The position numbers were made by a program, and so were the translations under genes. This document shows, piece by piece, positions 8,292-9,965 of a DNA stretch of 10,603 nt. Each line of letters begins with the position of its first letter. Position 1 is the first letter of the stretch. The notes below the pieces were generated by a model. That model saw only the letters and a list, made by a program, of their open reading frames with translations, did no database searches and had not been told where the DNA came from. Source of the DNA: Candidatus Naiadarchaeum limnaeum (GTDB lineage Archaea; Undinarchaeota; Undinarchaeia; Undinarchaeales; Naiadarchaeaceae); assembly GCA_014189685.1 (NCBI GenBank), contig DVAB01000014.1:1-10603 (forward strand), read 5' to 3'.

Positions 8292-8981
8292 TCAAATCTT
8301 AATTTCTAAAATACAGAAGTTGGGGGTTAAAATTTCTTTTGTTACGTTCCCTCCAAAAAAATCTTTTATTTGCTTTATATCATCAGAACTCCACCATCTT
8401 GAAGCGTAACCAGTTTTGCTTACAAAAAAACCATTAATGGGATCTGTTTTTTCTAAATCCACCTCGCCTACCATGGCTTTGAGTTTAGAGTACATTTTTA
8501 GACCCCAACTCCTAAGAGATTCTGATTTTAACATGGATATAACAACCTCACCATTGTATCTTTTAGCCACCAATTTCATTTGATTAAGAACCTTCCTATA
8601 ATCACCCTCAATTGTGCCGAGAGTATTTTGAAGTATAAGAAGCACTGGATTTTTAACATCCTCTTTCTCCAAAAGTTTGTAAAGCTTAAGCATATCCCCT
8701 TTTATTACTTTAACATTTCGGTGTTTTCGCGCTCTTTTTCTAAGTTCTGAGAGCATTGCAGGATTTATCTCTATTGCGATTACATTTCTAGCTATTTGTG
8801 CTAATAGATGCAAGACCCTACCATAGCCAGCGCCCAAGTCAATAAATGTCTTATCTTTGGAACCTTTTATATTTCGAATTAGATCCATTTCAACCTGCAT
8901 ATAATTCTGCACTATAGAATCGTCTATGTTTTCAACGGTTCTGATATATTTCTCAGGTGTATATTGTCTCATACCTTTCAT
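8292..8981 (-). CDS. Class I SAM-dependent methyltransferase
   Basis: 229 residues from the chosen ATG. The Rossmann-type methyltransferase fold is clear: motif I FIDLGAGYG (48-54 core) binds SAM, an acidic residue E71 after strand 2 (VIAIEINPAML) contacts the ribose, GDM at 95-97 follows strand 3, and LLILQNTLGTIEG (114-126) is the motif IV region. The substrate cannot be told. The frame stays open to 9224, but the extra N-terminal residues are a translation of tRNA-Leu and its intron, so they are rejected. ATG 8981 lies 14 bases after the tRNA 3' end, with an in-frame alternative at 8972. It has no clear promoter of its own and may be read through from the tRNA or from the Yip1-like gene. 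Confidence 0.85.
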   Translation of the reverse strand: MKGMRQYTPEKYIRTVENIDDSIVQNYMQVEMDLIRNIKGSKDKTFIDLGAGYGRVLHLLAQIARNVIAIEINPAMLSELRKRARKHRNVKVIKGDMLKLYKLLEKEDVKNPVLLILQNTLGTIEGDYRKVLNQMKLVAKRYNGEVVISMLKSESLRSWGLKMYSKLKAMVGEVDLEKTDPINGFFVSKTGYASRWWSSDDIKQIKDFFGGNVTKEILTPNFCILEIKI

Positions 8982-8995
8982 CCTAAAATTATTAG

Positions 8996-9175
8996 TGCGG
9001 GGGAGCGGATTTGAACCGCTGAAGGCGCTAGGCCACAGGATATCTTTGGCAACCTTTTCATTTTTCTCTTGATTTACTTGCCCTTTCTTTTGGGGTTGGG
9101 AAGGCTTTTTTTTTCGGGAAAAAAAGGGGTGGCCACTTAAGTCCTGCCCCTTAGACCAGACTCGGGAACCCCCGC
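8996..9175 (-). tRNA. tRNA-Leu (anticodon UAA) with intron
   Basis: Type II tRNA. The acceptor stem GCGGGGG (9175-9169) pairs with CCCCCGC (9003-8997), with discriminator A at 8996 and no encoded CCA. The D-arm has CCC/GGG. The anticodon stem CAGGA (9146-9142) pairs with TCCTG (9040-9036) with anticodon TAA at 9139-9137. The long variable arm is at 9035-9021 and the T-arm AGCGG-TTCAAAT-CCGCT at 9020-9004. The UAA anticodon reads UUA/UUG leucine codons. A 94-base intron interrupts it after position 37. A TATA-like box lies about 29 bases upstream. The mature length would be 86 bases before CCA addition. Confidence 0.95.
9042..9135 (-). other. 94-base archaeal intron in tRNA-Leu (position 37/38)
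   Basis: The intron follows G37 and ends before A38. A bulge-helix-bulge can be drawn: exon helix CAGGA/TCCTG, a 3-base bulge ATA on the 3' side, a central helix CTTA/AAAG (three pairs plus one A-A mismatch), a 3-base bulge AGT on the 5' side, and an inner helix GGCCACC/GGTTGCC with one mismatch. Cutting both bulges gives the spliced loop CTTAAGA. The intron also holds an A/T hairpin, seven pairs around CGGG (9108-9125). No box C/D or H/ACA motifs were found in it. Confidence 0.85.
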
Positions 9176-9197
9176 ATAGTATAGGCAGAATAAAGCT

Positions 9198-9209
9198 CTT
9201 TATAATATT
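9198..9209 (-). promoter_or_regulatory. TATA-like box for tRNA-Leu
   Basis: AATATTATAAAG on the minus strand lies 23-34 bases upstream of the tRNA-Leu 5' end at 9175, a normal archaeal tRNA promoter distance. It falls in the short gap after the Yip1-like gene, so the tRNA can be transcribed independently. Confidence 0.55.
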
Positions 9210-9220
9210 AAACTTACCTC

Positions 9221-9832
9221 TCAAAAAAGAGATAATAAAAATAAAAATGTTCCATAAACAACTGAAAACAGATAGGGCAGGGTTACTATGAGCGCCCCAG
9301 TACTTGTTGTTTCGTAATTAGCTTTCATTCCGATATAAGCAAGATAAACACTCCAGTACCCTGTTATAAGTGGAAAAAATGGCAAGATATTCAAGAAAAA
9401 CGGTGCGAACATAAATCCAGCGAGTTTTAGAGCGCGCCAAAATGTTCGCTTTCCAGCTATATCAGTCCCAGAAACTATCGATCCGAGAAAATGAAAGACT
9501 ACACTCCACAAAACCCATGCAAGCAGAAAAGCGAATGAGTTATAAAATATTCTAAAGAACAAAATTACCCCTCTTGTTACAGCACTTAGAATTTGAAGAA
9601 GAGTAGACCCTGTCTGCGCTGTTAGCTGTATATGCGCCCACATATCAACTCCAATTGCGCTCATAATTGCAGCTGCGATTACAACAATAAAAGGAACCGC
9701 TGTTGCGTAAGGCATATCAGCCTCCTCAATAATTCTGTGCACGGCTAGTTTTGGATTGCTAAAGATTCCATGCACATCCTGCGAAAATCTGCTCCCAAGC
9801 GTATGAACACGCTTCTCAATAATCCCTTCCAT
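9221..9832 (-). CDS. Yip1-domain-like membrane protein
   Basis: 203 residues. A cytoplasmic N-terminal segment (about 1-42, with FSQDVHGIFSNPKLAVHRI) is followed by five hydrophobic segments at about 43-62, 87-118, 134-157, 159-168 and 180-203. The arrangement and motifs such as FSNPKLAVHRI, FAFLLAWVLWSVVFHFLGSI and RALKLAGFMFAPFFL are typical of the prokaryotic YIP1 (PF04893-type) membrane proteins, whose function is unknown. A TATA-like element at 9855-9863 sits about 27 bases before the ATG at 9832, consistent with a leaderless mRNA. It is divergent from tRNA-Pro and followed by tRNA-Leu 45 bases after its stop. Confidence 0.75.
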   Translation of the reverse strand: MEGIIEKRVHTLGSRFSQDVHGIFSNPKLAVHRIIEEADMPYATAVPFIVVIAAAIMSAIGVDMWAHIQLTAQTGSTLLQILSAVTRGVILFFRIFYNSFAFLLAWVLWSVVFHFLGSIVSGTDIAGKRTFWRALKLAGFMFAPFFLNILPFFPLITGYWSVYLAYIGMKANYETTSTGALIVTLPYLFSVVYGTFLFLLSLF

Positions 9833-9876: not shown

Positions 9877-9963
9877 GGGGCCGTGGTCTAACCTGGTATG
9901 ATGCTACCTTGGGGACATGAGCCAAAATGGTAGTGGTTCCCAGTTCAAATCTGGGCGGCCCCA
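9877..9963 (+). tRNA. tRNA-Pro (anticodon GGG) with short intron
   Basis: The acceptor stem GGGGCCG (9877-9883) pairs with CGGCCCC (9956-9962), with discriminator A at 9963 and no encoded CCA. The D-arm begins GTC and closes GAT. The anticodon stem CTACC (9904-9908) pairs with GGTAG (9929-9933), with the anticodon GGG at 9911-9913. The variable loop is TGGTT, and the T-arm is CCCAG-TTCAAAT-CTGGG (9939-9955). A 13-base intron follows position 37. The mature length is 74 bases before CCA. The alternative reading with anticodon TGG would require shifting the stem by one base and gives a worse D-arm fit. Confidence 0.93.
9915..9927 (+). other. 13-base intron in tRNA-Pro (position 37/38)
   Basis: Between G37 and T38. 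The central helix TTGG (9909-9912) pairs perfectly with CCAA (9922-9925), and AAT (9926-9928) forms the 3-base bulge next to the exon helix CTACC/GGTAG. On the 5' side the second bulge merges with the 9-base apical loop, giving a relaxed bulge-helix-loop rather than a full bulge-helix-bulge. Cutting as in the canonical motif yields the loop TTGGGGT. Confidence 0.85.
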
Positions 9964-9965
9964 CT

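Follow-up and report, generated by a model that had tools for sequence, protein, structure and literature searches.

An intron-containing tRNA-Leu(UAA) gene in a deep-branching archaeon encoding a single alpha-type splicing endonuclease

A tRNA-Leu(UAA) gene interrupted by a 94-nt intron lies on the minus strand of the window (the whole 10,603-nt stretch of DNA analysed here), and the genome that carries it encodes an alpha-type tRNA splicing endonuclease and an RtcB ligase. We are highly confident that the gene is the only one known for tRNA-Leu(UAA) in a deep-branching archaeon with a small genome, and that its ordinary 37/38 intron is spliced by these two enzymes. The intron is a typical archaeal tRNA intron at the usual place, and the gene itself is a routine annotation that default tools overlook. 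During maturation, the anticodon stem and a strong outer helix of the intron would form in the pre-tRNA. The alpha-type endonuclease would cut behind G37 and behind the final base of the intron, in spite of a mismatch at 35:-6 of the central helix, and RtcB would ligate the two tRNA halves.

The 5' half of the gene comprises tRNA positions 1-37 (9175-9136, 40 nt) and was placed by ARAGORN in intron mode and a hand-drawn structure, with matching 5' halves found in other archaeal genomes. The 3' half (9041-8996, 46 nt) contains positions 38-73 with the variable arm, the T arm and the discriminator A73, as judged from ARAGORN, the hand-drawn structure and intact relatives; CCA is not encoded. Between the two halves, the bulge-helix-bulge intron (9135-9042) ends in AAAGAU and occupies the canonical position 37/38 according to both the ARAGORN insertion position and a pairing table. 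Inspection of the upstream sequence further revealed a TATA-like box, TTATAAAG, at 9198-9205 on the minus strand, whose first base is 30 nt upstream of the tRNA 5' end and which is the probable promoter of the gene.

With introns allowed, ARAGORN called the same locus in the window and placed the 94-nt intron between TTAAG and ATCCT. Applied to the spliced 86-mer, it formed all arms of a class II cloverleaf and typed it as tRNA-Leu(taa); the long variable arm, the anticodon UAA and A73 are all present, as confirmed by hand reading. The joined halves share 77-84% identity with intact archaeal tRNA-Leu(UAA) genes, and intron-mode ARAGORN returned no tRNA of any sort from 300 dinucleotide-shuffled windows. 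An initial sequence-only reading of this DNA had proposed a tRNA-Leu(UAA) with a 94-base intron, which these results bear out. The intron interrupts the tRNA model, so that both default ARAGORN without introns and Rfam at the gathering score missed the gene; a relaxed Rfam threshold likewise gave no relevant match in the window. On the same strand, the ATG of a methyltransferase-like gene follows the tRNA end at a distance of 14 nt (8981-8996), and the two may reside on one transcript. A long open reading frame listed at 8292-9224 passes through the tRNA gene; its upstream part is probably spurious.

Five tRNA-Leu genes were seen in the genome, with the anticodons CAG, GAG, UAG, CAA and UAA. 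Another intact tRNA-Leu(UAA), named by the sequence-only reading as part of an observation that would count against it, was searched for and not found anywhere in the genome (98% complete), the UAA copy occurring only at this locus. Moreover, UUA is the most frequent leucine codon of the genes in the window, accounting for 97 of 346 leucine codons among ~3100 codons in total. Judging from the single gene found and the prevalence of its codon, the gene must work and the intron must therefore come out.

The central helix of the splice motif consists of three Watson-Crick pairs (32:-3 C-G, 33:-4 U-A and 34:-5 U-A) followed by an A-A mismatch at 35:-6, as read from a pairing table in the register that restores the 7-base anticodon loop. 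It is flanked by two bulges of 3 nt, AG^U and AU^A, each with its predicted cut site after the second base and in register to restore the tRNA. The outer helix is paired at six of seven positions (G-C, G-C, C-G, one mismatch, A-U, C-G and C-G). Among shuffled introns held in this fixed register, three central pairs together with six of seven outer pairs occurred at a frequency of 4e-5. Thus, the earlier claim of a bulge-helix-bulge setting the splice at 37/38, with an A-A mismatch in its central helix, agrees with both the ARAGORN insertion point and the pairing table. With three pairs and a mismatch instead of the four pairs of a strict motif, the intron is near-canonical and falls short of strict membership in the bulge-helix-bulge class. 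Few structures of the folding ensemble contain the central helix (about 4%), and the first intron base, a U, prefers to pair with A(-6). The tRNA-Met intron, whose 4-bp motif is perfect, scores no higher (1%), so that this probability does not discriminate between motifs, and we rejected it as a test of motif quality. The register favoured by folding, in which this U pairs with A(-6) and A35-A36-G37 form the 5' bulge, was likewise rejected as the functional one because a cut at 36/37 would leave a 6-base anticodon loop.

How ordinary the mismatch is becomes apparent from the other introns of this genome, which were compared using extracted tRNA loci. We laid out 14 introns at 37/38, placing the splice points by hand, and found position 35:-6 unpaired in seven. 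All six introns ending in AGAU^A (three Leu, Phe, Gly-UCC and Ser-UGA) are unpaired at this position, and 32:-3 and 33:-4 are paired in every one of them. A full 4-bp central helix was found in three introns, namely those of tRNA-Met, of one tRNA-Gly-CCC and of the tRNA-Pro(GGG) gene of the window (9877-9964, plus strand), which has a short intron of 13 nt and was also missed by the default tRNA search. We further compared ten tRNA-Leu(UAA) introns of other archaea, taken from surveys that covered up to 297 genomes. Position 35:-6 is unpaired in four of these, one of them also showing an A-A. A single endonuclease gene was found in two of the four genomes (G121 and G024) and two genes in a third (G183), while the fourth (G062) has one gene and a fragment at a contig start. 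With half of the organism's own 37/38 introns and four of ten introns elsewhere sharing the unpaired position, two of the latter in single-endonuclease genomes, the A35-A(-6) mismatch is normal for this organism and gives no evidence for a special enzyme. A single mismatch in the central helix should hence not be taken as a sign of an unusual endonuclease.

The sequence-only reading had suggested that an epsilon-type or heterotetrameric endonuclease of relaxed specificity may be needed, and that the endonuclease type in the genome be determined. In reviews, alpha4 and alpha2 enzymes are described as cutting canonical motifs only (PMC4033280, PMC6379350), and relaxed motifs are linked to (alpha-beta)2 and epsilon2 enzymes (PMC6379350, PMC4033280), which alone remove such introns efficiently (PMC6379350). 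The genome (98% complete) yielded one PF01974 and one PF02778 match, both within the same 176-aa protein (L001, 1249-1776); neither a gene for a second subunit nor a three-unit fused protein was found. By sequence, this sole endonuclease is a Methanocaldococcus-like alpha type: its alignment with the homotetrameric enzyme of Methanocaldococcus jannaschii (1a79; E = 1.6e-36) begins at residue 7 and reaches the C-terminal end, and its counterparts in relatives from the same order share 63% and 57% identity with it. No sizeable insertion was seen in the alignment with the M. jannaschii enzyme, the one comparison in which the Crenarchaea-specific loop of alpha subunits was looked for. An alignment with ARMAN-2 showed that the five-residue insertion 'ygtyk' is absent at the equivalent loop (for the role of the ARMAN loop, see PMC12397907). 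The single alpha-type gene, the missing ARMAN-type loop and the occurrence of the mismatch elsewhere, including the single-endonuclease genomes G121 and G024, leave the proposal of an epsilon or (alpha-beta)2 enzyme unsupported. We regard this proposal as mostly refuted already and as very unlikely to be correct. The genome also encodes a single RtcB ligase (499-aa open frame). Since alpha4 and alpha2 enzymes are published as canonical-only, our preferred reading, splicing by the alpha-type endonuclease, assumes that a central helix of 3 bp is tolerated; with both of its bulges intact, the near-canonical motif deviates mildly from what the literature states on enzyme and substrate.

The intron could also have a function of its own, as a stable small RNA that guides or regulates. 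Archaeal introns can form circles after excision, and some introns of tRNA-Trp act as box C/D guides. On the minus strand, the intron contains a run of seven T (9119-9125), followed by CCCG and nine A, the two runs starting at 9125 and 9114. The A/T hairpin noticed in the sequence-only reading thus exists as complementarity, but the stable small RNA derived from it is unsupported, since the hairpin alone reaches just -0.3 to -3 kcal/mol in folding and the whole 94-nt intron gains no significant stability over its shuffles (z = -1.36). In accordance with that reading, which had seen no guide motifs, no box-C/D-like pair was seen by eye. Moreover, the tRNA-Leu(UAA) of a genome from the same order (G002) has no intron, and a role as small RNA appears highly improbable. 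The T7 run is odd in another respect, as transcription by archaeal RNA polymerase can terminate at oligo-T. Lying on the coding strand, it could stop the polymerase before the 3' half, which we count against the preferred explanation. The run would fit a split tRNA, whose 5' half is terminated at T7 and joined in trans to a separately transcribed 3' half, and motifs of this kind are also used by split tRNAs (PMC4090602). However, both halves lie on one strand only 94 nt apart, and the pairs of the outer helix form in cis at a probability above 0.9 in folding. We therefore consider a split gene exceedingly improbable.

Among the closest known systems, archaeal canonical 37/38 introns share with the present intron the position, the 3-nt bulges, the cut sites and the strong outer helix, as well as an alpha-type endonuclease and RtcB encoded in the genome; they differ in having four central pairs. 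The relaxed hBH, HBh' and bulge-helix-loop introns of Crenarchaeota and ARMAN resemble it in their imperfect motif, whereas here both bulges and both helices are present and the single alpha-type enzyme lacks the ARMAN-type loop. The ten tRNA-Leu(UAA) introns of other archaea interrupt the same tRNA at the same position and some end in AGAU^A, but at 13-41 nt they are all shorter than the intron described here. Their bodies show no apparent similarity to it, as judged by eye from unaligned sequences.

The order was sampled by six genomes, this one (G000) and five relatives (G001-G005). As the intron is absent from the tRNA-Leu(UAA) of G002, whose order is the same and whose RpoA' is 76-77% identical, it is probably lineage-specific. 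Pattern and BLAST searches did not find tRNA-Leu(UAA) in the remaining relatives, G001 and G003-G005 (75-86% complete). The best named matches of RpoA' reach at most 59% identity (Archaeoglobaceae, Hydrothermarchaeota and Hadesarchaea), and comparisons of Mre11 and RpoA' identified no named close relative of the order. In a quick RpoA' tree, the order forms a separate clade within a weakly resolved region of deep branches including Diapherotrites. The order is a deep archaeal lineage with small genomes.

A more unusual feature of this alpha-only genome than the tRNA-Leu(UAA) intron is the presence of T-loop introns, read as 59/60 and with related ends, in four of its tRNAs: Lys(CUU) (L293), Ala(GGC) (L294), Arg(UCG) (L295) and Leu(CAA) (L082), the last of which carries two introns, one in the T-loop and one at 37/38. 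The motif is a perfect 4-bp one in Arg(UCG) and fits in Lys, Ala and Leu(CAA) if one extra C is bulged. In Thermoproteales, introns of similar sequence residing in different tRNAs were interpreted as evidence for intron transposition (PMC4033280), and the related ends suggest a recent spread here. The Lys intron as a query gave no convincing copies in the five relatives of the order. We tentatively propose, at somewhat less than even confidence, that a single-gene alpha-type endonuclease without an ARMAN loop processes the intron-rich tRNAs of this organism, including those with imperfect motifs at 37/38 and those with T-loop introns of recent spread. If true, this would break with the published association of substrate range with enzyme type. 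The genome, which combines a single alpha-type enzyme with T-loop introns and numerous imperfect motifs, offers a usable test of how strictly alpha-only enzymes select their substrates. Two further loci were observed among its tRNAs. The tRNA-Trp gene (L085, 211-501) contains an intron of ~215 nt with CTGA and ATGATGA, which resemble the D and C boxes, respectively, of guide RNAs. Another intron-bearing tRNA (L023, 1500-1613) is called Ser(tga) by ARAGORN, and its spliced anticodon may read UAU (Ile), which is unusual in archaea.
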